The notes beneath the pieces were generated by a model. It did no database searches, was not told the DNA's origin, and saw only the letters and a program-made list of their open reading frames with translations. From the NCBI GenBank assembly GCA_031264425.1, contig JAISDY010000043.1, forward strand, positions 1 through 11,256: a DNA stretch of 11,256 nucleotides. Reading direction: 5' to 3'. A program made the position numbers and the translations under genes. Origin of the DNA: Endomicrobium sp. (lineage in GTDB: Bacteria > Elusimicrobiota > Endomicrobiia > Endomicrobiales > Endomicrobiaceae). Of this stretch, positions 643-11,256 are shown one piece after another; the first letter of the stretch is position 1; each line of letters opens with the position of its first letter.

Positions 643-649
643 CATGGTT

Positions 650-1645
650 ATGTTTGCAGATAAAATTTATTTATTGTTACTGTTATTGCTTCCACTTTTA
701 GCAGGATTCCTTTATTTAACATTTCGTAAAAGAGCGTTTGATTTGGTACTGCTTATATCTAAGTCCAATTTCTTGTCTCTTACAAATGTTAATTTAAACG
801 CTTATAAAGTTAAAAATATTTTAATTCTTTCAGCCTTATTTTTTATTATTATTGCTTTGGCACGTCCACAGTTTGGCTATAAAAAGAAAACTGTAATAAA
901 AGAATCTTCTGAAATTGTTATATCTTTAGACGTTTCAAGAAGCATGCTTGCCCAAGATCTGAAGCCGAATAGACTTGAAAAAGCTAAAGATATGGTGTTA
1001 AAGATTGTTGAAGAGAACCCCGGCGAAAAAATAGGCATTATTGTCTTTTCAGGAAGCGCTATGTGGCAATGTCCCATGACCTACGATTCTCAGGCTTTAA
1101 AAATGTTCTTACAAAGTGTTGAGGTCGGCAGTCTTCCTATGGGCGGCACTCAAATAAGCGATGCTATTGTGCTAGCTTCAAAAGCTGTGGAAAAAGAACT
1201 TTCCAATGGAAAAGTTATGATTTTAATAAGCGACGGAGAAGATCACGATTCAAAAATTAAAGAAGCTATAAATAAAGCTAAAAAAGCGGGATTGAAAATT
1301 ATTACGGTCGGTATTGGCACGCCGACTGGCTCTCCAGTTCCTGTAAAAGATGAAAGCGGTATAATAAAGGATTATATTAAAGACAGAACCGGTCAGGTTG
1401 TTGTAAGCAAGATAAATGCAAATTTACTCAAAAGCGTTGCCAGCGAAACAGGCGGAAAATATTTTGATGCTTCAGGTAAAGATATTTCAGGGGATCTGTC
1501 AAAAGCAGTAAGAGATTTAGAAAAAAATAAAAATAAGGTCAGCGAAAGAGATGGCAAAATAGACAGATTCCAGATATTCTTACTTGTCGCTTTGCTGTTG
1601 CTGTTTATAGAATTATTATTTCCTGTAAAAAGATTAAAGAAATGA
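650..1645 (+). CDS. batB: BatA/BatB-family von Willebrand A membrane protein
   Basis: This is a 331-residue membrane protein of the Bat (Bacteroides aerotolerance) family. Two N-terminal membrane segments (about 7-25 and 56-71) are followed by the family hallmark ARPQFG (71-76). A vWA domain runs from about 88 to 285 with a complete metal-binding MIDAS: D94-x-S96-x-S98, T167 in GGTQ, and D195 in SDGED. A third membrane segment (about 307-323) and a basic tail close the protein, so the vWA domain should sit on one face of the inner membrane. I chose ATG 650 over 644 because AAGG at 639-642 is correctly spaced. The stop overlaps the next gene's start (ATGA). Being followed directly by a TPR gene matches BatB rather than BatA, but one vWA gene alone does not settle which. 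The biochemical role of the family is poorly defined; aerotolerance and envelope-stress phenotypes are reported. Confidence 0.88.
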   Translation: MFADKIYLLLLLLLPLLAGFLYLTFRKRAFDLVLLISKSNFLSLTNVNLNAYKVKNILILSALFFIIIALARPQFGYKKKTVIKESSEIVISLDVSRSMLAQDLKPNRLEKAKDMVLKIVEENPGEKIGIIVFSGSAMWQCPMTYDSQALKMFLQSVEVGSLPMGGTQISDAIVLASKAVEKELSNGKVMILISDGEDHDSKIKEAINKAKKAGLKIITVGIGTPTGSPVPVKDESGIIKDYIKDRTGQVVVSKINANLLKSVASETGGKYFDASGKDISGDLSKAVRDLEKNKNKVSERDGKIDRFQIFLLVALLLLFIELLFPVKRLKK

Positions 1646-2622
1646 AAATAGAGAAAAGACTTTTTGTTAAAATAATCGCTTTTTTCACGCTTTTGATTCT
1701 TCTATTTTTGATTTTATTTATATCAATCAAAAATGTAAGAGCCAATAACAAAGCTGTGAAGTATTTTAATAAAGAAAATTTTGAAGCGGCTGCGCAAACT
1801 TTTGATAATGAGCTTAAAAATAGTCCAAAAAATTATGTTGTAATAAACAATTCAGCGGGAACAGACTATAAACTAAATAAACTGGACGAAGCAGAGTCAA
1901 AGTATTCGGTTGTTATAAACTCCACAGATGCCGCAAAAGAAGACAAATTTACGGCTTTGTACGGTATAGGAAACGTTGAATTCTTAAAAAATAATTTTGA
2001 AAAATCCGCAGACTTTTACAGAGAGGCTTTGAAACTTAATCCAAATGATAAAGACGCAAAATATAACCTTGAGCTTGTGTTGTTAAAATTGAACGAGAAA
2101 AACAATAAACAAGACAGTAAAGACGATAAACAGAAAAATGATAAGCAAAAACAAAATCAACAAGCTCAAGATTTAAAAAAGCAGATGGAGCAAAATGATA
2201 AAGCTCAAAAAGAAAATGAAAAGAAACGCCAAGAAAAGAACGGCAAAAGCGGCGATAATAAAGATTCCGATTCCCAAAGAAGCGATGACAATAAACAAAA
2301 AGAGTTGGAAAAAGAAAAAAAAGAGCTTGATAAGCAGAAACAAGAAATAAGCGATAAAATAAAAAATTTAATGAATGCCCAAAAAGATAAAGATCAACCT
2401 AAACAAAAGCAATCTAATGCTCAAAAGGAAGAAAAATTTCAAAAAGGCAAACAGTCTGACAAAAGCGAGCCTATGCAACAAAACAAGATAAAAAAAGATG
2501 TTAATAAAGATACGCAAGCCGTAATGCTTTTAAATTATTATAATGAAGCTGATAAAAATTCAAATAAAGTCAGAAATAAAAATAAAGAACCTTTAACAAA
2601 TCAACCGCAAGAGGATTGGTAA
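1642..2622 (+). CDS. batC: BatC-like TPR protein with Lys/Gln-rich tail
   Basis: This 326-residue protein begins with an uncleaved-looking membrane segment (about 8-29). About three TPR-like helical pairs follow (roughly 35-140), the clearest being the third, with ALKLNPNDKDAKYN. From about 145 to 290 it is a highly charged, low-complexity stretch dominated by Lys, Gln, Asp, Glu and Asn, probably coiled-coil or disordered. The last 35 residues are ordered again (AVMLLNYYNEADK) and end in EDW, a style of ending seen in BatC/TPR proteins of Bat operons. The start overlaps the previous stop as ATGA and the stop overlaps the next start as TAATG, so the three genes are probably translationally coupled. 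TPR repeats usually mediate protein-protein contacts, so I infer a scaffold between the vWA protein and BatD. Assignment rests mainly on domain order and neighbours. Confidence 0.8.
   Translation: MKIEKRLFVKIIAFFTLLILLFLILFISIKNVRANNKAVKYFNKENFEAAAQTFDNELKNSPKNYVVINNSAGTDYKLNKLDEAESKYSVVINSTDAAKEDKFTALYGIGNVEFLKNNFEKSADFYREALKLNPNDKDAKYNLELVLLKLNEKNNKQDSKDDKQKNDKQKQNQQAQDLKKQMEQNDKAQKENEKKRQEKNGKSGDNKDSDSQRSDDNKQKELEKEKKELDKQKQEISDKIKNLMNAQKDKDQPKQKQSNAQKEEKFQKGKQSDKSEPMQQNKIKKDVNKDTQAVMLLNYYNEADKNSNKVRNKNKEPLTNQPQEDW
2611..2614 (+). promoter_or_regulatory. Ribosome binding site of batD
   Basis: GAGG lies seven bases before ATG 2622, inside the end of batC. This supports 2622 over an in-frame TTG at 2616. 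Confidence 0.5.
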
Positions 2623-4358
2623 TGTTTAAAAAGATATTTTGTTTAGTAATGTTATCTCTTGGAATAACATCGCTATATGCGGACGTTATTTCTTTTAATG
2701 CATCTGTAGATAAAAAAACGGTAGCTTTAAACGATTCTTCCATATATTCAATTACAATAAGTGGCGATGGAAAAAATTTGCCAGATCACGAAATAGGAAA
2801 TATTGTTGAATTTAACAGATTCGGCACCTCTACTTCGCAAAGTATGACTATAATAAATGGAAAGTCCAATGTGAGCGTTACTTATAGATATACTTTGGGA
2901 CCAAAAAGAACTGGTAAGTTTACAATACCTCCCGCTACTATATCCTATAATGGTAAAACATACTCAACCGAAAGTATAGAGATAGAGGTTGTTCCTGCTA
3001 AAAATATTCAGAGCATTTCTTCCGCGGATTCAAGCAGGGGAAGCGTTCGCCAACATTCGTCGCAAAATCCTCCCGGGAAAGCGTTTGTTAAAGCTTCAGT
3101 AAATAAAACAACGGTTTACGAAAACGAAAAATTAGTTTATAAATTTAACTTCTATAGAAATGTTGACTTAATATCTAATCCTGAATACTATCCTCCTGAT
3201 TTTACGGGTTTTTGGAATGACGGATCTAAACCAAAAGAACGTTACGATGTTATTGACGGCTCTAACTATCACATTGATGAAATAGATACTTTTTTATATC
3301 CAGTCGGCGTTGGAGTAAAGACTATTGCGCCGACAAAACTCAAAATAAGCGTTATGGATTTTTCAGGTTCAGACGACGACTTTTTCTCTATTTTCTCAAA
3401 TATGGGGCGAGGACGAACTAAAGTTTTAGAAACAAATCCTGTGGAAGTAAAAGTTATCGCTTTGCCACAAGAAGGAAGACCTTCAAATTTTGAGGGAGCT
3501 GTGGGTGATTTTAAAATAAAGGCTTTGGTTGATAAACAGAATGTACAGACAAACGAGCCTGTAACTTTGACGGTTACCGTAAGCGGAAACGGAAATATGA
3601 AAAGTATAGCCGACATACACTTTGATGATTATAGCGGTTTTAAAAAGTACGACACTATTGTTGCAAATACTTCGGATAATTCAAAAGAATTTAGAGCTAT
3701 ATTTATACCTCAGCTTCCGGGAGAGAAAGAAATACCTGCAGCAAGCCTTTCTTTTTTTAATCCTACAAAGAAACAATATGAGACTATCAAAACACAGGCG
3801 CAAATAATTGTTGTAAGAGGCGAGCCTGTTTATTCGTCCGGTTCTTCTAGTAAAGAATCCGGCACAAATATAATCCGCAGAGGCATAAATTATAACAATC
3901 CGATAAAAAATCTGAAACAATTTAAAGGACATTTTGTAAAAAAGCCTTCATTTTATTTGATTTTTGTTCCGTTTGTTATTTTATTGATGACAATTTTTAC
4001 ATATAAGAAGATACAAACAAATCCGTTGAAAAAAAGCAAAATTACTTCTTCTGTTGCAAAAATTCAAAAACTATTAGAAAGCGCGCGACTTGAAGTTTCA
4101 AAAAATAATTTGCACTTGGCTCTAAACTTAATCTATCAAGCTTTAATGGAATTTGTGACTATTAAAACAGGAATATTATCCGACAATTTATCCGGAGATC
4201 AAATAAAAGAAAAATTACTAACGTCAGGAGTAGATGAAGCGAATATTGGCAAAATAATGAAAATTTACGATAAACTCAACTTCTATAAGTTCGCTTCTGT
4301 AGATTTAGACAAAGATTCCATAAAAATTTTAATAGACGCCGTAAAATCTTTGATTTAA
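2622..4358 (+). CDS. batD: BatD-like exported, membrane-anchored protein
   Basis: This 578-residue protein has a clear signal peptide (basic MFKK, hydrophobic core, likely cleavage after LYA at about residue 20). A long beta-rich region of Ig-like repeats follows, in the pattern of the BatD/oxygen-tolerance family: an opening strand with FNASVDKKTVALNDS and a TGKFTIPPATISYNGK segment near 95-115. A second such repeat begins near residue 290, with VDKQNVQTNEPVTLTV. One membrane segment at about 443-464 leaves the repeats outside the cytoplasm and a C-terminal helical domain of about 110 residues inside. I chose ATG 2622, which shares one base with the batC stop and has GAGG upstream. Position in the operon, size and topology all fit BatD. 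I infer that it forms an envelope complex with the vWA and TPR proteins; no catalytic motif is visible. Confidence 0.83.
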   Translation: MFKKIFCLVMLSLGITSLYADVISFNASVDKKTVALNDSSIYSITISGDGKNLPDHEIGNIVEFNRFGTSTSQSMTIINGKSNVSVTYRYTLGPKRTGKFTIPPATISYNGKTYSTESIEIEVVPAKNIQSISSADSSRGSVRQHSSQNPPGKAFVKASVNKTTVYENEKLVYKFNFYRNVDLISNPEYYPPDFTGFWNDGSKPKERYDVIDGSNYHIDEIDTFLYPVGVGVKTIAPTKLKISVMDFSGSDDDFFSIFSNMGRGRTKVLETNPVEVKVIALPQEGRPSNFEGAVGDFKIKALVDKQNVQTNEPVTLTVTVSGNGNMKSIADIHFDDYSGFKKYDTIVANTSDNSKEFRAIFIPQLPGEKEIPAASLSFFNPTKKQYETIKTQAQIIVVRGEPVYSSGSSSKESGTNIIRRGINYNNPIKNLKQFKGHFVKKPSFYLIFVPFVILLMTIFTYKKIQTNPLKKSKITSSVAKIQKLLESARLEVSKNNLHLALNLIYQALMEFVTIKTGILSDNLSGDQIKEKLLTSGVDEANIGKIMKIYDKLNFYKFASVDLDKDSIKILIDAVKSLI

Positions 4359-4427: not shown

Positions 4428-7325
4428 GTGAAAAGAATTCTAATTAAAAGATTGTTTACGTCTTTATTGTCAATTTATTTTGTTCTCTCAATATTTGTTT
4501 CTTCATCGGCTGTTCAAACGTCTCATCTGGTTACAGAATCTGTAGATCTTTACGGCGGATTGGGTTTGCCGACAGACACTATTCCTTTTATGAAAAAAGT
4601 CCGCAGAGGCACGCTGCCTAACGGACTTCGTTATTACATTTTAAAAAATAATAAGCCTGAAAACAGGGCTTGCTTAACGCTAGCTGTTAATGCAGGGTCT
4701 GTCTTAGAGGAAGATAATGAGCAAGGGCTTGCTCATTTTGTGGAGCATATGGCTTTCCAAGGAACAAAACGGTTCCCTAAAAAAGGAGATATTTTAAATT
4801 ATTTCCGTTCTAAGGGAATGCGCTTTGGAGCGGACGAGAATGCATATACGTCTTTTAACGAAACAGTCTATGGGATAGAAATACCTGTTGAATCCGATGG
4901 CAAAGGCGGGAAGCGTATTCCCAAAAAAGCTCTTGATACCATTGACGATTGGACGTATGCAATTACTTTTGATCCGAAAAATATAGATGATGAAAAACTC
5001 GTTATATTAGAAGAAAAAAGATTGAGAATGGCAAACGCTAACGGAAGAGTTATAGAGAAACTTATTCCTATTATATATAAAGGATCTAAATACGCTGTGC
5101 GCATGCCCATAGGTTTGTCAGAAATAATAGAGAATGCAAATCAGAAAGTTATAAAAGATTTTTATGACAAATGGTATTGTACGGAGAATATGGCTGTTAT
5201 ATTGGTAGGAGACTTTGATGATAGCGATTTGGAAAAAGCGCTAATATCTTATTTTCACGCTGTTCCTAGCAAAGTTTTGTTGAAGCGTCCAGATTATGAA
5301 TTTCCGCTTCCTATAAAAGGAAATCAAAATATAGAAATTATTACTGATTCTGAGCTTTCTAATGCGTTGGTTTATCTTAGGTATAATCAATTTGCAAAAA
5401 TTTTGGATAATAGTTTAAGTTCTTTTAGAGAACAGTTGATAGATAAACTTATTTCAAGCATGATCGCCCAACGCTTTCAAGAAGAATCGCATAATCCGGA
5501 TGCGCCGTATATTTGGGCTTCTATTCAGGAAGATAGGGTTAAATCTTCTTCGCCGTCACGTTTTATGCAGCTTTATGCGAGGGCAAAAACAGACAAAACG
5601 GAAGAAGTCATTAAGTTTTTATTAAAAGAAAAAGAGCTTATTTATCGTTACGGCTGGACTAAGTCGGAAGTTGACGTTGCTAAACGTGCGCTTCTTGCCG
5701 AATTTACTTCTTTGGCTGCAGAAAAAAGATATGATTCAAGTGTATATATTTCAAAATTTACGAATCATTTTATTGGGGACAACGCCAGCGTGGCTGATAA
5801 CGATATTTTGCTTAATGCTGCAAAGAAAATACTGCCCAACATTAGTATAGAAGAATTGAATGAAACGGCAAAGAAATATTTTGCGGAAGACGACTTGATC
5901 GCCGTTGTAGTTGCTCCTGAGAAAGAAAGAATTCCATCTAAAGATAAAATTAAAAAGATAATTAAAACTTCAAAAAAGATGAAAATTTCGCCGCCAAAGG
6001 AAGAAATTGTAAATGATATTCTCTTGAATAATGCCCCTGTTTCTGGAAAAATTTTGAATGAAAATATAGACGCCGAAACAAACGCTATTATTTGGAACCT
6101 TTCAAACGGCGCTACGGTTGTCTTGAAGAAAACCGATAATAAAGCAAACGAAATTGTAATGGATGCTTTGGCAAAAGGCGGGATTTTAAACGTTTCTAGC
6201 AAAGATATTGTATCGGCGCAACTTGCCGCGGACATGTTTAATGTTTCTGGCGTTGGGAAATACTCTAGTGACGAATTGCCAAAGAAACTTGCCGATAAAC
6301 AAGTAAGCCTTTATTTCAATATGTCTGAGTTTACGCATGGTTTTTCTGGAGCGAGCGTAAATAAAGATATTAAAACTTTGTTTGAGCTTTTGTATTTGAA
6401 TTTTACTGACCCTAGATTTGATTCCGAAGCAGTAAAGGCTTATATTTCAAAACGCAAATCGTTTCTTGAAAACGAAGATCGGGACCCGAAAAATGTTTTT
6501 AGTAAGGATTTTATAAAAATTATTTACGGGAACGATCCATATTTTAAACCTTTAGAGTTTTCAGATATTGCCAAACTTAATAAAAGCACCGCGTTAAATC
6601 TTGTTAAAAAAGCTTTAAATCCTGCGGACTATACGTTTGTCTTTGTTGGAAGTGTTGACGACATTAATACTTTTAAAGAATATGCGGCGACATATTTAGC
6701 TTCTATCCCTGCGGGTAAAGAAAAAAATTCTTTACCGCAACATAATGTTGCTCGTCCGAGAGAAGTTAAGCGTAATGTTTATAAGGGAAAAGAAGAGTTA
6801 AGCAGTGTCCGAATGAAGTGGATTATAAAAGAACAATATTCTCAAAATGAAAAAGCCGCGGCAGACGCGCTGAGAGAATATTTAAATATTGTTCTTGTTG
6901 AAGATATTAGAATGAAACTTGGCAATACGTACAGTATTTACAGCTTTACTGATTTAGACATTTTACTTGGAGAATTGAGCTTAAACATTTCATTTTCCTG
7001 TGCCCCGAACAAAGTTGACGAAAGCATTGCCGAAATAATTAAAGACATAAATGCTATAGATTCGGGTAATATCAACCTTGATATTCTAAGTAAAGCAAAA
7101 AAAGCCTGCAAGAAAGTATATGAAATTTCAATTCAAGACAATTCTACGCTTGCAAGAAATTATGCGGACTTGGCTGTCATATATGGCAAACCATTTGCCT
7201 CTATAGGCGAATTCCCTAAACTCTATGATTCTATGTCTTCAAAAGATTTACAAACAATAGTCAACAAACTTTTAAAAGGCGGCTGCACTCAAGTTGTTTT
7301 ATACCCCGAAAAGTTGAAAGAATAA
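4428..7325 (+). CDS. Exported M16-family zinc metalloprotease (PqqL/insulinase-like)
   Basis: This 965-residue protein has a basic N-terminus and a hydrophobic core (about 8-25) ending SSSA, a likely signal peptide cleaved near residue 28, so it should act in the periplasm or outside the cell. The catalytic M16 unit follows: GTLPNGLRYY (61-70), the inverted zinc motif H103-F-V-E106-H107, and the downstream ExxxxxxE pair (E189 and E196) that supplies the third zinc ligand. A second M16-like half starts near residue 550 (IIWNLSNGATVVLKK) and lacks an HxxEH motif, as usual for two-unit M16 peptidases. Length matches the roughly 930-residue PqqL-like group. The start is GTG with AGAGG at 4417-4421, six bases upstream. 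It lies 69 bases after batD, so it may be read through or have its own promoter. The substrate is not evident; degradation of exported peptides is a family-level guess. Confidence 0.9.
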   Translation: MKRILIKRLFTSLLSIYFVLSIFVSSSAVQTSHLVTESVDLYGGLGLPTDTIPFMKKVRRGTLPNGLRYYILKNNKPENRACLTLAVNAGSVLEEDNEQGLAHFVEHMAFQGTKRFPKKGDILNYFRSKGMRFGADENAYTSFNETVYGIEIPVESDGKGGKRIPKKALDTIDDWTYAITFDPKNIDDEKLVILEEKRLRMANANGRVIEKLIPIIYKGSKYAVRMPIGLSEIIENANQKVIKDFYDKWYCTENMAVILVGDFDDSDLEKALISYFHAVPSKVLLKRPDYEFPLPIKGNQNIEIITDSELSNALVYLRYNQFAKILDNSLSSFREQLIDKLISSMIAQRFQEESHNPDAPYIWASIQEDRVKSSSPSRFMQLYARAKTDKTEEVIKFLLKEKELIYRYGWTKSEVDVAKRALLAEFTSLAAEKRYDSSVYISKFTNHFIGDNASVADNDILLNAAKKILPNISIEELNETAKKYFAEDDLIAVVVAPEKERIPSKDKIKKIIKTSKKMKISPPKEEIVNDILLNNAPVSGKILNENIDAETNAIIWNLSNGATVVLKKTDNKANEIVMDALAKGGILNVSSKDIVSAQLAADMFNVSGVGKYSSDELPKKLADKQVSLYFNMSEFTHGFSGASVNKDIKTLFELLYLNFTDPRFDSEAVKAYISKRKSFLENEDRDPKNVFSKDFIKIIYGNDPYFKPLEFSDIAKLNKSTALNLVKKALNPADYTFVFVGSVDDINTFKEYAATYLASIPAGKEKNSLPQHNVARPREVKRNVYKGKEELSSVRMKWIIKEQYSQNEKAAADALREYLNIVLVEDIRMKLGNTYSIYSFTDLDILLGELSLNISFSCAPNKVDESIAEIIKDINAIDSGNINLDILSKAKKACKKVYEISIQDNSTLARNYADLAVIYGKPFASIGEFPKLYDSMSSKDLQTIVNKLLKGGCTQVVLYPEKLKE

Positions 7326-7432: not shown

Positions 7433-7591
7433 ATGGAAAAGTGGAAATGTTCTGTATGTGGAGATGTTTATGATCCGGCAGTAGGTGACCCTGATAAAGG
7501 AATTGCTCCGAGAACATCTTTTGAGCAGTTGCCTGAAGACTGGACATGTCCTTTTTGCGGTCAGCCGAAATCTGTTTTTGAAAGAGAATAA
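7433..7591 (+). CDS. Rubredoxin
   Basis: This 52-residue protein is a full-length classical rubredoxin. The two iron-binding pairs are C6-x-x-C9 (CSVCG) and C39-x-x-C42 (CPFCG), with the usual intervening [25 protein letters not shown] core. It is a soluble one-iron electron carrier. In anaerobes rubredoxin commonly passes electrons to flavodiiron proteins and superoxide reductases, and genes for both lie downstream on the same strand, so that partnership is a reasonable inference. The ATG is preceded by an unusually strong AAGGAGGG (7419-7426) six bases upstream, and a promoter-like sequence lies just before it. The next gene begins 15 bases after its stop, so the two are very likely cotranscribed. 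All four cysteines are present and nothing looks truncated. Confidence 0.96.
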
Positions 7592-7606: not shown

Positions 7607-8866
7607 ATGAAGCAAGTATATTTGGACAATCAATCTAATACCAAGCTAGATGAAAGAATTTTTGATGTTATGAAGCCGTTTTTTTTTGAGTATTACGGCA
7701 ATCCTCAGAGTATTTATTCTTTGGGATCTATCTCTAAAGAAGCTCTTGAAACTGCAAGAAAACAGGTGGCAGATTACATACATGCCGATGCCAACGAGAT
7801 TATTTTTACTTCTTGTGGGACCGAAGCCAATAATTTAGCTGTAAAAGGCATTTGTGAAGCGCTGAAGTCTAAAGGCAATCATATTGTTGTGTCTGCTATA
7901 GAACATTTTTCTGTTTTAAATGCTGTAAAAAAGCTTCAAAAAGATGGCTTTGAAGCAACTTATATATCTGTTGATGAAAAAGGGAATGTAAGTGAAACGG
8001 AACTTTTAAAAGCCTTGCGGAAAGATACAGTTTTGGTTTCAATACAGCATTCCAATACCGAAGTCGGTACTATACAAGATATAAAAAAATTAGCTTCAAC
8101 TGTTAAAAATAGCAAAGTTAACGATTTCGTTGTTTTTCATACGGATGCGGTAAGTTCAGGCGGTATGATGCCTATAGACGTAAAAGGTTTGGGTGTTGAC
8201 GCCTTGACTCTATCATCTTCGGCGATGTACGGACCCAAAGGAGCCGCGGCTCTCTATCTAAAAAAAGGGATACGTATTGTTCCTCAGATGGACGGTGGTG
8301 TGCAGGAGTATTCTAAACGCGCGGGGACTGAAAATATTCCCGCTATTGTTGGGTTTGGGAAAGCCTGCGAAATAGCTAAAGAAGAAACAGCGGCTAACAA
8401 CAGGAAAATTAAAGAATTAAGAGATAAACTTATAGAAGAACTTCCAAAGAGAATAGAATACGTTTATTTAAATGGAGCTTTAGAAAACCGCCTTGTAGGG
8501 AACGTAAATTTTTCAATTGAATTTGTTGAAGGTGAAGCATTGTTTTTGCTTTTAGATGCTAAGGGTATTATGGCGGCAAGCGGGTCGGCATGCGCAAATA
8601 AGAATCTTAAAATGTCGCATGTTTTAGACGCCATGAAAGTTGATGTTGCCGTCGGTCAAGGTTCAATTTTATTTACTTTGTCAAAGTATAATACAGAAGA
8701 AGAGATAAACTATGTCCTTGAGGAGTTCCCTAAGATTGTTAAAAGGCTTAGGGAAATGTCGCCTCTATATTCTTATTTTATTCAAACTGGAAAAAGAAAA
8801 CCTGCGGGTCCAGGGGCAGATTTTGACGATCATAATCACTGTCACTGCGATATAGAAATAGAATAA
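7607..8866 (+). CDS. iscS: IscS/NifS-like cysteine desulfurase homologue lacking the PLP lysine
   Basis: This 419-residue class-V aminotransferase-fold protein has SCGTEANNLA (69-78), IEH with H100, HTDA with D180, YGPKG (208-212), RAGTEN (238-243) and the persulfide cysteine C329 in GSACANKN. The residue that should be the Schiff-base lysine (SxHK before YGPKG) is Ala206, preceded by Ser205 in place of His. The usual Gln after DA(V/T) is Ser183, the second Asn of the HxNNE motif is Thr151, and the N-terminal AATT motif is altered to QSNT. PLP chemistry is therefore probably lost or changed while cysteine persulfide transfer may remain. Archaeoglobus fulgidus IscS is a known case with the lysine replaced (by Asp) and an IscU partner. 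The tail (about 397-419) adds an unusual acidic His/Cys cluster, DDHNHCHCD. AGGA at 7597-7600 supports the start. Followed by iscU, it probably acts in Fe-S assembly. Confidence 0.9.
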   Translation: MKQVYLDNQSNTKLDERIFDVMKPFFFEYYGNPQSIYSLGSISKEALETARKQVADYIHADANEIIFTSCGTEANNLAVKGICEALKSKGNHIVVSAIEHFSVLNAVKKLQKDGFEATYISVDEKGNVSETELLKALRKDTVLVSIQHSNTEVGTIQDIKKLASTVKNSKVNDFVVFHTDAVSSGGMMPIDVKGLGVDALTLSSSAMYGPKGAAALYLKKGIRIVPQMDGGVQEYSKRAGTENIPAIVGFGKACEIAKEETAANNRKIKELRDKLIEELPKRIEYVYLNGALENRLVGNVNFSIEFVEGEALFLLLDAKGIMAASGSACANKNLKMSHVLDAMKVDVAVGQGSILFTLSKYNTEEEINYVLEEFPKIVKRLREMSPLYSYFIQTGKRKPAGPGADFDDHNHCHCDIEIE

Positions 8867-8957: not shown

Positions 8958-9332
8958 ATGGCATTTTATTCTGAAAAAGTTATGGATCATTTTGCAAATC
9001 CGAGAAATGTAGGAGAAATAAAGAATGCCGACGGTATTGGTGAAGTCGGCAATCCTGTATGCGGCGATATGATGACTTTCTACATAAAAGTTAAGGATAA
9101 TAAAATAGAAGATGTAAAATTTAAAACTTTTGGATGCGGTGCGGCAATAGCCGTTTCTTCTATGGTTTCGGAAATGGCTTTAGGCAAAACGGTTGATGAA
9201 GTTTTAAAAATTACAAATGACGATGTGGCTAAAGCTTTGGGAGGGCTTCCTCCAAATAAGCTACATTGCTCTAATCTTGGCGCCGACGCTTTGCACAAAG
9301 CAATACAAGATTACAAAAACAAGAAAAAATAA
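8958..9332 (+). CDS. iscU: IscU-type iron-sulfur cluster scaffold
   Basis: This 124-residue protein is a complete IscU/NifU-N domain. The three cluster-binding cysteines are present: C35 in GNPVCGD, C60 in FGCGAA, and C104 in KLHCS. The conserved Asp37, which makes clusters labile for transfer, is also present. The stretch that recruits the HscA/DnaK chaperone in other IscU proteins reads LPPNK (97-101) where LPPVK is usual, so the Val is replaced. There is no C-terminal NifU extension. IscU accepts sulfur and iron and hands the finished cluster to apoproteins in the cytoplasm. Here its neighbour is the lysine-less IscS homologue, so its sulfur source may be unusual. I chose ATG 8958 for its GGAGGG. 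A 91-base gap separates it from iscS and only 22 bases from the Cys-rich gene after it. Confidence 0.94.
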   Translation: MAFYSEKVMDHFANPRNVGEIKNADGIGEVGNPVCGDMMTFYIKVKDNKIEDVKFKTFGCGAAIAVSSMVSEMALGKTVDEVLKITNDDVAKALGGLPPNKLHCSNLGADALHKAIQDYKNKKK

Positions 9333-9354: not shown

Positions 9355-9561
9355 ATGGGTAACTGTAATTCTCACTCCGGCGGTTGTTCATGCCCCCATT
9401 GCGAAGACGAATTAAAAAACTGCTGCATAAGCCCAACATTTTGTAAACCGTGCGGACAAAAGGCTAAAAACATTAAAGTTTGTCCAGTCTGCCAAGCTGA
9501 ATACTCTTTAGAATACGAAAAGTGTCCTGCCTGTTCCGTAATAGGGAAAGAAAAAGAATAA
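9355..9561 (+). CDS. Small 12-cysteine protein of unknown function
   Basis: I do not recognise this 68-residue protein. It has 12 cysteines: C4, then CxCxxC (C11, C13, C16), a CC pair (C23, C24), CxxC (C30, C33), CxxC (C43, C46) and CxxC (C57, C60). There are also two histidines, at 7 and 15. The last two CxxC pairs, ten residues apart, look like a zinc ribbon or rubredoxin-like knuckle, and the C30/C33 pair could be a further half-knuckle. The N-terminal CxCxxC cluster is unlike either. GAGG at 9345-9348, six bases before the ATG, supports this start, and the upstream extension overlaps iscU in another frame. It lies 22 bases after iscU and is probably cotranscribed with it. A metal or sulfur carrier for Fe-S assembly, or an electron carrier, are possible roles; neither is shown by the sequence. 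Confidence 0.85.
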   Translation: MGNCNSHSGGCSCPHCEDELKNCCISPTFCKPCGQKAKNIKVCPVCQAEYSLEYEKCPACSVIGKEKE

Positions 9562-9622: not shown

Positions 9623-9634
9623 ATTTGATATGTG

Positions 9635-9641
9635 AAAGGAG
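9635..9641 (+). promoter_or_regulatory. Ribosome binding site of fprA
   Basis: AAAGGAG lies seven bases before ATG 9649. It favours this start over an in-frame TTG at 9625 that would place the ribosome site inside the gene. Confidence 0.6.
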
Positions 9642-9648
9642 CTTTGTT

Positions 9649-10839
9649 ATGGCTGCAAAGATAATAAAAGACGGCGTGTACGCTGTCGGAGCTGTTGACT
9701 GGAACGAAAGGCATTTTCACGGGCATACATACGTGACAAAAAGAGGCGTTACATATAATTCTTACCTAATTATTGATGAAAAAATTACTTTAATTGACAC
9801 CGTTCGCAAAGGTTTTGAAAAAGAACTTTTAGAAAATATTAAAAGCATAGTGGATCCGTCTAAAATAGACATAATAATTATCAATCATATTGAACCGGAT
9901 CATTCGGGAGCGTTTCCGGAAGTTTTAAAAGCGTGTCCTAACGCCAAAGTTTACGGAACTGAAAAAGCAAGAGTTGGGCTTTTAAAATATTACGGCGTAA
10001 GCGGAAACTGGACTGCTGTGAAATCAAGTCAAAGTTTGAAGATTGGGAAAAGAACTTTGGAATTTATAGATGTTCCCATGATACATTGGCCTGACAGCAT
10101 GTTTACATATTGCGCGTCTGATAAAATCTTGTTTTCAAACGATGGATTTGGACAGCATTATGCGACTAACAAACTTTTTGATGACGAAGTTAATTTTGAT
10201 GTCTTAATGGAAGAAGCTCAAAAATATTATGCCAATATTCTTTGGCCATTTAATATGCTTGTTGCTTCTAAACTTGCCGCTATAAGCAAACTAAACCTTG
10301 CCATTGATTTTATTGCTCCAAGCCATGGACTTGTTTGGCGTAAACATATTTCTGACATTATGGAAAAATATCTTTACTGGGCTGCCCATAAATGCAAGAA
10401 AAGAATTGCGGTTGTTTATGAAACAATGTGGAATTCTACTGAAAAGATGGCGCGAAAAATTGTTGAAGGCATAACCTCAGAAGGCGTTGAAGTTGTTTTG
10501 TTTGATGTTACAAAAAACGATAGAACAGACATCGCTTCCTATATGCTGGACGCTAAAGGCTGGATTTTTGGCTCTTCAACTCACGATGGAGAAATGCTTC
10601 CCCTAATAGCAGGATTTTTACATTTCTTAAAAGGTTCCAAAGCTATAGGACGTAAATCTTTTGCTTTCGGCTCTTACGGCTGGAGCGGCGAAGCGGTAAA
10701 GGATATAGAAGATACTGTTTCTAATATTACGACTTTTGATCCCTCTTTTAGAGTTGTTTTTAATCCTACAGAAGAAGAGTTAAATAAGTGTTTTGAAGCT
10801 GGTAAATCTTTTGCTTTAAAAATAAAAAATGAAGAATAA
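9649..10839 (+). CDS. fprA: Flavodiiron protein (FprA/rubredoxin:oxygen oxidoreductase type)
   Basis: This 396-residue protein has the standard two-domain FprA length. The N-terminal metallo-beta-lactamase-like domain carries the full diiron ligand set: H80-x-E82-x-D84-H85 in HIEPDH, H146 in IHWPDS, D165 in SNDGFG, and H226 in PSHG. The C-terminal flavodoxin-like domain starts near 252, with an FMN phosphate loop YETMWNSTEKMA (257-268) followed by GSSTHDG (308-314) and GSYGWSG (341-347). There is no C-terminal rubredoxin or flavin reductase extension, so it needs an external electron donor; the rubredoxin at 7433 is the obvious candidate. FprA enzymes reduce O2 to water, and some reduce NO, in the cytoplasm of anaerobes. 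The ATG at 9649 has AAAGGAG upstream. A promoter-like sequence precedes it, and the superoxide reductase gene follows after 19 bases. Confidence 0.96.
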   Translation: MAAKIIKDGVYAVGAVDWNERHFHGHTYVTKRGVTYNSYLIIDEKITLIDTVRKGFEKELLENIKSIVDPSKIDIIIINHIEPDHSGAFPEVLKACPNAKVYGTEKARVGLLKYYGVSGNWTAVKSSQSLKIGKRTLEFIDVPMIHWPDSMFTYCASDKILFSNDGFGQHYATNKLFDDEVNFDVLMEEAQKYYANILWPFNMLVASKLAAISKLNLAIDFIAPSHGLVWRKHISDIMEKYLYWAAHKCKKRIAVVYETMWNSTEKMARKIVEGITSEGVEVVLFDVTKNDRTDIASYMLDAKGWIFGSSTHDGEMLPLIAGFLHFLKGSKAIGRKSFAFGSYGWSGEAVKDIEDTVSNITTFDPSFRVVFNPTEEELNKCFEAGKSFALKIKNEE

Positions 10840-10858: not shown

Positions 10859-11256
10859 ATGAAAGGTATAGTATGCAAAGTGTGCGGATACGTGGCTTTG
10901 GACGGAGATAAAGGAGTTTGTCCAGTATGTCATACAAAGAACGAATTTGAAGAAAAAGAAGACGCTTATAAAATGCCTGATTTTAAAGCTGCTTCTGGTG
11001 AATCTGAAAAGAAGCATATTCCCGCTTTTACAGTTGTCAACGAATGCGGTTTAATACCAAGTAGTGGTTGCACTGACGTTCATGTGAAAATAGGAGAAAT
11101 CCTTCACCCTGCCTTGCCGGAACATCATATAACGGAAATAACTTTTTATCTTAATAATAAATTTATAGCCAATGTTATGTTGACGTCAGATATAAATCCT
11201 GCGGCTGTAATTCATTTGAAGAGCGGTACGAAAGGAAAAGTTCAGGTAATAGAAAA
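10859..11256 (+). CDS. dfx: Desulfoferrodoxin-like superoxide reductase, 3' end beyond window
   Basis: The 132 codons visible encode two modules. Residues 1-30 form a small knuckle with C6-x-x-C9 and C21-x-x-C24, resembling the rubredoxin-like tail of rubrerythrin more than the CC-containing desulforedoxin module of classical desulfoferrodoxin. After a linker, residues about 51-132 match a superoxide reductase domain: KKHIP (H53), LHPALPEHH (H83, H89, H90) and the following beta strands. The usual EKHxP motif has Lys51 where the Glu sits, while the catalytic-pocket Lys52 is kept. Two extra cysteines (C63, C71) lie in the loop. The expected final Cys and His iron ligands would be just past 11256. 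Superoxide reductases reduce superoxide to peroxide with electrons from rubredoxin. AGGAGG at 10848-10853 supports the start, and the 19-base gap from fprA suggests cotranscription. Confidence 0.88.
   Translation, partial: MKGIVCKVCGYVALDGDKGVCPVCHTKNEFEEKEDAYKMPDFKAASGESEKKHIPAFTVVNECGLIPSSGCTDVHVKIGEILHPALPEHHITEITFYLNNKFIANVMLTSDINPAAVIHLKSGTKGKVQVIE

Follow-up and report, generated by a model that had tools for sequence, protein, structure and literature searches.

IscS homologues whose genes adjoin iscU are routinely taken for cysteine desulfurases in annotation, and the MIS (minimal ISC) system is described as a cysteine desulfurase and a scaffold with no carrier (PMC12192291). A departure from this scheme is known from Archaeoglobus fulgidus: its IscS is reported to have no desulfurase activity and to donate a cysteine ligand to the IscU cluster (PMC7585200), and Cys321 has been named as that cluster ligand (PMC9769115). 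Work in E. coli bears on where the sulfur might come from. H2S is reported to restore anaerobic growth and Fe-S enzymes in cells without iscS and not to rescue cells without iscU; when both genes were missing, sulfide improved growth slightly and had no significant effect on fumarate reductase activity (PMC13015791). Because sulfide feeds E. coli IscU in the absence of IscS, a dead IscS is not needed for that in E. coli.

The locus considered here lies in a stretch of 11,256 nucleotides from Endomicrobium sp. (contig JAISDY010000043.1; hereafter the window), whose genome (G000) is a fragmentary MAG of 910 kb, 69% complete. The nearest named proteins to the protein of interest are also from Endomicrobium. 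The features that the argument draws on are as follows.

7433..7591, + strand: rubredoxin, directly upstream of the IscS-like gene (PF00301, E 3e-21; upstream in 29/30 genus loci)
7607..8866, + strand: lysine-less IscS-like protein of 419 aa with the Aminotran_5 fold, an intact ORF with an ATG start
8213..8224, + strand: S203-S204-S205-A206 (codons tca tct tcg gcg), against S-G-H-K206 of E. coli IscS
8591..8593, + strand: Cys329, the loop cysteine, kept in 51/51 relatives' loci and 119/119 close proteins
8669..8671, + strand: L355, facing the substrate-binding arginine R354 of E. coli, which is lost in 51/51 relatives' loci
8771..8863, + strand: C-terminal tail, His/Cys-rich towards its end (DDHNHCHCDIEIE)
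8958..9332, + strand: IscU/NifU-type scaffold (TIGR03419, 209.5 bits against a cut-off of 187.9; PF01592)
9355..9561, + strand: small CxxC-rich (zinc-ribbon-like) protein of 68 residues, 3' of iscU
9625..10839, + strand: flavodiiron protein, FprA-like (PF19583, PF00258)
10859..11254, + strand: desulfoferrodoxin-type protein, running off the window (PF01880, E 6e-9)

A sequence-only reading of the window had described the gene at 7607-8866 as an unbroken frame followed by iscU, in which S203-S-S-A206 stands for the usual S-x-H-K, three further PLP contacts have changed (Asn to Thr151, Gln to Ser183, His to Ser205), and Cys329, H100, D180 and T72 persist. All of this holds up. The codons at 8213-8224 are as described, and alignment with E. 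coli IscS (from NC_000913, locus L078) sets A206 against K206, T151 against N155, S183 against Q183 and S205 against H205, with H100 (H104), D180 (D180), T72 (T76), T241 (T243) and Cys329 (C328) unchanged; S203 of the PLP site is also kept. The ORF is intact and the IscU gene begins about 90 bases downstream. The alignment adds a fifth loss that the earlier reading had not listed, L355 at the position of E. coli R354, which we take to be the arginine that binds the carboxylate of the substrate cysteine. Measured against a catalytic IscS/NifS, the window protein has the fold and the loop cysteine, and K206 and R354 are absent. Loss of the lysine rules out the usual Schiff base with PLP, and loss of the arginine removes the anchor for the cysteine carboxylate; what remains is the fold, an IscU partner and the loop cysteine. 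The tail is a further distinguishing trait: at least three His are found there in 27/50 lysine-less Elusimicrobiota proteins, compared with 0/17 lysine-bearing paralogues.

The gene sits in an oxygen-stress and Fe-S neighbourhood. Within the genus the order is rubredoxin, lysine-less gene, iscU, CxxC protein and, mostly, where the stretch reaches that far, the flavodiiron protein; a desulfoferrodoxin gene after the flavodiiron gene was seen in the window. The CxxC-rich protein had no Pfam match and was matched in 21/30 genus loci, some of which end at contig ends. Equivalents of the IscU ligand residues C37, D39, C63, H105 and C106 are all present in the window IscU. Farther upstream, positions 644-4358 carry genes resembling a Bat-type aerotolerance set, look-alikes by NCBIfam models: a VWA protein that matches the models for BatB and BatA, a TPR protein that matches the one for BatC, and a third protein, of 580 aa, to which no NCBIfam model matched. 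Between these and the rubredoxin gene, positions 4428-7325 encode a 965-residue M16-type (pitrilysin/PqqF-like) peptidase.

The missing lysine is shared widely among relatives. Among 59 relatives' genomes, the window's own included, a lysine-less copy was read in 50, at 51 loci, one of which (L077) lacks the site itself; G002 has a C-terminal fragment only. The other eight showed a lysine-bearing paralogue only (read in all eight), seven of them together with an IscU, so that the lysine-less copy is there either dispensable or missed. At the 50 readable loci the lysine site holds V (24), Q (19), A (3), S, T, M or I (1 each) and never K. The position of R354 is L, V, I or T throughout the 51 loci, and none of the 119 database proteins closest to the window protein has K206 or R354. 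A broader draw from the phylum (148 genomes at a requested completeness of at least 90%, again with the window's own) gave the same picture: an ortholog at 63% identity or more occurs in 35/35 genomes of the window's family, all without the lysine, and in the 34 that reach those positions the Cys is kept and R354 lost. For many other families of the phylum the matches listed are at about 45% identity or less. Sequencing error or gene decay, which the fragmentary state of the source MAG might bring to mind, is ruled out as a negligible prospect by these counts (lysine in 0/119 close proteins and 0/50 readable loci) together with dN/dS values of 0.09-0.20 (11 pairs within the genus). Such ratios indicate that the lysine-less gene is maintained under purifying selection. 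The earlier proposal of selection rather than decay is thus well founded, given also the orthologs in all 35 family genomes of that draw and the parallel losses in a second lineage described below.

The association with iscU is similarly consistent. Counting loci with at least 500 nt of downstream sequence and an iscU within 750 nt downstream, 43/49 lysine-less Elusimicrobiota loci are followed by iscU compared with 3/18 lysine-bearing ones (Fisher p 9e-8). In a set mostly from outside the phylum, gathered by a pattern scan (below), the figures are 81/100 of the listed lysine-less loci and 8/32 lysine-bearing loci from genomes that also hold a lysine-less copy (p 1e-8); both p values are optimistic because related rows are not independent. 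A downstream iscU was not found within that distance at six of the 49 and 19 of the 100 lysine-less loci. The partners themselves have every ligand residue intact in 44/44 Elusimicrobiota cases and, elsewhere, in 83 to 85 of 87, depending on the residue. A search for SUFBD gave no match in nine Elusimicrobiota genomes, six of them 98-99% complete, and each of the nine has one strong NifU_N match (in G025 and G116 a weak second match scores 23 bits). Eight of the nine belong to the window's family and have their IscU beside the lysine-less gene, which makes the lysine-less IscS the head of the sole Fe-S scaffold system detected in them. The ninth, G057, has only a lysine-bearing IscS, beside its IscU.

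These observations, taken with the published A. fulgidus and E. coli results, are best read as cluster assembly on IscU driven by sulfide, with a ligand contributed by a dead IscS. It is probable that the window protein is a desulfurase-dead IscS homologue kept as a dedicated partner of IscU, with Cys329 serving as a ligand or thiol and with sulfide, or sulfur from another desulfurase, feeding the cluster. Neither the PLP internal aldimine nor normal binding of substrate cysteine would be available to such a protein. It would most likely form an (IscS-IscU)2 complex with the adjacent IscU, its mobile-loop Cys329 could act as a cluster ligand or as a (per)sulfide-handling thiol, and the [2Fe-2S] cluster would be assembled on IscU, its iron coming as Fe2+ and its sulfur either as free sulfide or from another desulfurase. 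The sequences themselves show the loss of active-site residues, the retention of the Cys, purifying selection, the pairing with IscU and the convergence. The lack of activity, the geometry of the complex and sulfide as donor are points that we infer from sequence, and we likewise infer the choice of sulfide-driven assembly over a purely structural role.

How much cysteine-derived sulfur could still be involved depends on the other desulfurases at hand. Most relatives have a second IscS-type gene, 39-49% identical, and H-K is kept in all 25 of these paralogues that were read, out of 52 near-full-length matches. Their surroundings differ: the lysine-bearing Elusimicrobiota loci show an mnmA match in 6/18 and mltG in three (L040, L042, L057). 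Both copies occur together in seven genomes of the window's family that are 92-99% complete (G016, G019, G023, G025, G029, G110, G116). The sequence-only reading had suggested looking for a second desulfurase that keeps the lysine, and the outcome is divided: such a copy is present in the sister genomes checked, and none was found in the window's own 69%-complete genome by a PF00266 search. The six other PF00266 matches in that genome scored best as other PLP enzymes (BhcA-like, GcvPB, GcvPA, lysine decarboxylase-like, HisC and aspartate transaminase). Among 40 other genomes with a lysine-less copy, 27 also have a lysine-bearing IscS-type copy, five have a remote H-K copy and no other, judged SufS-like from its motif and 27-37% identity alone, one (G089) is unclassified, and in seven (G059, G060, G070, G071, G075, G080, G087) no lysine-bearing desulfurase was found; in G099 the stretch concerned reads N. 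Of the seven, G059, G060 and G080 were covered by the PF00266 search, and G070, G075 and G087 show a further weak match of 20-29 bits. SUFBD is present in G059 and G080. Of the seven, G080 alone has been deposited as a chromosome; the other six are fragmentary, so absence in them is weak evidence. Where it is present, the lysine-bearing paralogue is likely the desulfurase, mostly located elsewhere in the genome.

With a lysine-bearing IscS-type copy in 27 of these 40 genomes and a remote H-K copy in another five, cysteine sulfur may still reach IscU. One could therefore suppose a sulfur relay in which a persulfide moves to Cys329 from the lysine-bearing paralogue, or from a rhodanese, and then on to IscU, so that the source is still cysteine. 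The intact H-K of every paralogue read and the near-universal retention of the loop Cys agree with this, but the seven genomes in which no lysine-bearing desulfurase was found, one of them the chromosome of G080, do not, and a relay is the less likely account, with perhaps one chance in several. A second use for the paralogue can be imagined as well. The two identical chains of an IscS dimer share an active site, and a lysine-less chain could serve as a regulatory or structural subunit in a heterodimer with a lysine-bearing one. There is a precedent for such an arrangement in trypanosomatids, where a catalytically dead paralogue is reported to activate deoxyhypusine synthase (PMC3663545). In the loci read, however, the two genes are mostly not neighbours, the lysine-less gene travels with iscU, and some genomes have no paralogue that could be found, all of which makes a heterodimer very improbable compared with the favoured reading, a dead IscS dedicated to IscU.

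Lysine-less IscS proteins extend well beyond the genus. Among the 120 proteins nearest A. fulgidus IscS2, 119 have D at the lysine site and one has K; the lone exception (100% identity, rounded, to A. fulgidus IscS2) looks like the D199K chain of 4r5f. The 121 proteins nearest a divergent Elusimicrobiota copy (L051, itself included), a set whose names include Aminicenantes, have Q in 119, E in one and R in one, with the Cys in all 121. A pattern scan of genome contigs, which required a non-lysine codon at the site, so that lysine loss there is by construction, found at least 117 loci, and all 117 listed are IscS homologues by BLAST. In these the lysine site is D (50), Q (49), E (5), L (4), V (3), A (3), R (2) or P (1); 111 extend as far as the Cys and 110 of them have it, R354 is kept in 4/110, N155 in 39/117 and H205 in 26/117, and the tail has at least three His in 7/99. 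Their titles cover archaea (Bathyarchaeota, Lokiarchaeota, Hadesarchaea, ANME-2, Methanocellales, Methanosaeta, Thermoplasmata) and bacteria (Dehalococcoidia, Nitrospirae, Acidobacteria, Zixibacteria, Desulfobacterales, Syntrophomonadaceae, Elusimicrobia), and some of these labels may be wrong because nearly all the genomes are MAGs. Three groups of loci deserve separate mention. Nitrospirae loci (L081, L086, L141 and similar) form a lysine-less subgroup with H-Q, in which the histidine is kept and the lysine and arginine are lost, possibly an intermediate stage. L153 (2054-3196, Clostridia) encodes an IscS homologue without either the lysine or the loop cysteine, with iscU 15 nt downstream. 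On a Methanophagales contig (L165, 4420-7534), a lysine-bearing and a lysine-less IscS lie less than 1 kb apart on opposite strands, with iscU after the lysine-less one only.

The variety of residues at the lysine site also bears on whether these proteins might be PLP enzymes of changed chemistry, holding the cofactor non-covalently and acting on another substrate. The PLP site retains H100, D180, S203 and T241, and the legend to Fig. 1 of PMC9769115 presents the A. fulgidus IscS-IscU complex drawn with PLP, so a protein that has lost the lysine may still bind PLP. Yet the lysine disappears together with Arg354, Gln183 and, usually, His205, and its replacement by V, A, Q, D, E or S fits a relaxed site rather than a new catalytic residue. 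Within subclades one residue does prevail (D for the archaeal type, Q or V for the bacterial one), so some role for it is conceivable. On balance a new PLP chemistry is improbable, and the evidence is more consistent with a dead partner of IscU.

Trees built without the active-site columns suggest that such partners arose more than once. The careful tree has 98 rows (59 lysine-less, 39 lysine-bearing) and leaves out five long-branched or odd sequences, all lysine-less (L142, L166, L153, L080, L157); a quick tree of 103 rows that includes them required three changes rather than two. In the careful tree an archaeal-type lysine-less clade contains A. fulgidus IscS2 (27 rows, support 100/99, a few with bacterial titles), and a separate bacterial lysine-less clade contains the window protein (32 rows, support 97/88; Elusimicrobiota, Nitrospirota, Chloroflexota, Acidobacteriota and Bacillota). 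The sister of the bacterial clade is a single lysine-bearing row, the PDB chain 9wep (100/98). A single lysine-less clade that would include A. fulgidus IscS was rejected (dlnL 49.8, p-AU 0.0025, 0% of 200 bootstrap trees, a bootstrap short of fully settled). On these trees, the bacterial lysine-less clade is one that arose separately from the archaeal-type clade. The A. fulgidus precedent invoked in the earlier reading therefore stands in part: A. fulgidus IscS is as stated in PMC7585200 and the pairing with IscU is strong, but the window protein belongs to a separate clade and is a convergent case. Two archaeal IscS-like genes, L142 (1231-2376) and L166 (2563-3687), have His-Leu and Thr-Leu, respectively, at the site and keep Arg354; they apparently represent a further separate loss of the lysine.

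Comparison of columns across the 32 bacterial, 27 archaeal-type and 39 lysine-bearing rows shows that Q183, H205, K206 and R354 were lost in both clades, as were C111 and S332; in the bacterial rows Q183 is kept in 3/32 and H205 in 8/32. Both clades have Ser in place of A106 (59/59 lysine-less rows) and have gained a basic residue three after the Cys. Four of the 39 lysine-bearing rows already have Ser at A106 and six have the basic residue, so these two changes may precede loss of the lysine. For the same reason the basic residue is no clear replacement for it, as a migrated lysine would be.

The separate origin of these losses in numerous bacteria and archaea suggests that cluster assembly there may run on sulfide rather than cysteine. 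A wider statement is possible but more tentative, and we would put it at somewhat less than an even chance: two lineages, one bacterial and one in the main archaeal, would have independently made dead IscU partners by losing the same four residues, so that IscU in many prokaryotes would assemble clusters from sulfide instead of cysteine supplied through its own IscS. The same would hold for the Endomicrobium line, where this is the only Fe-S scaffold system detected, and Cys329, perhaps along with the His-rich tail, would assist in taking up sulfide or iron. If many such proteins cannot use cysteine, the sulfur source for Fe-S clusters in their hosts has been misassigned, and A. fulgidus IscS is one example of a repeated evolutionary outcome and not an oddity. 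It also becomes testable whether, in living cells, an IscU partnered by a dead IscS makes its clusters from sulfide.

A literature search, judged mainly by titles and the starts of abstracts and covering few subscription journals, found no report of a lysine-less IscS in bacteria. Several known systems can nevertheless be set beside the window locus. Canonical IscS/NifS proteins such as E. coli IscS share the fold and loop cysteine with the window protein (about 40% identity) but have the lysine and the substrate arginine that it lacks, and the window protein falls below the NCBIfam equivalog cut-offs (464 against 530.75 for TIGR03402, 363.6 against 643.2 for TIGR02006). The closest solved sequence, PDB 9wep (388 bits), is named a cysteine desulfurase and, unlike the window protein, keeps H-K and the arginine. 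Compared with the MIS system, the window locus has the scaffold, but its IscS partner is without the catalytic residues. Methanosarcina acetivorans IscS1, which is archaeal and is likened here by its published description, lacks the essential lysine and adjoins iscU according to PMC7585200. The nearest counterpart is A. fulgidus IscS2 (PDB 4eb5, 4eb7, 4hvk; D199), which is also without the equivalents of the lysine, Gln183, His205 and Arg354 and has the loop Cys, the fold and the iscU partner in common with the window protein; it belongs to the archaeal-type N-D clade, whereas the window protein belongs to the bacterial clade, with A, V or Q rather than D at the site and a longer tail. The kind of protein is thus already known from A. 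fulgidus IscS2, and the bacterial clade and its convergence with the archaeal type appear to be new.
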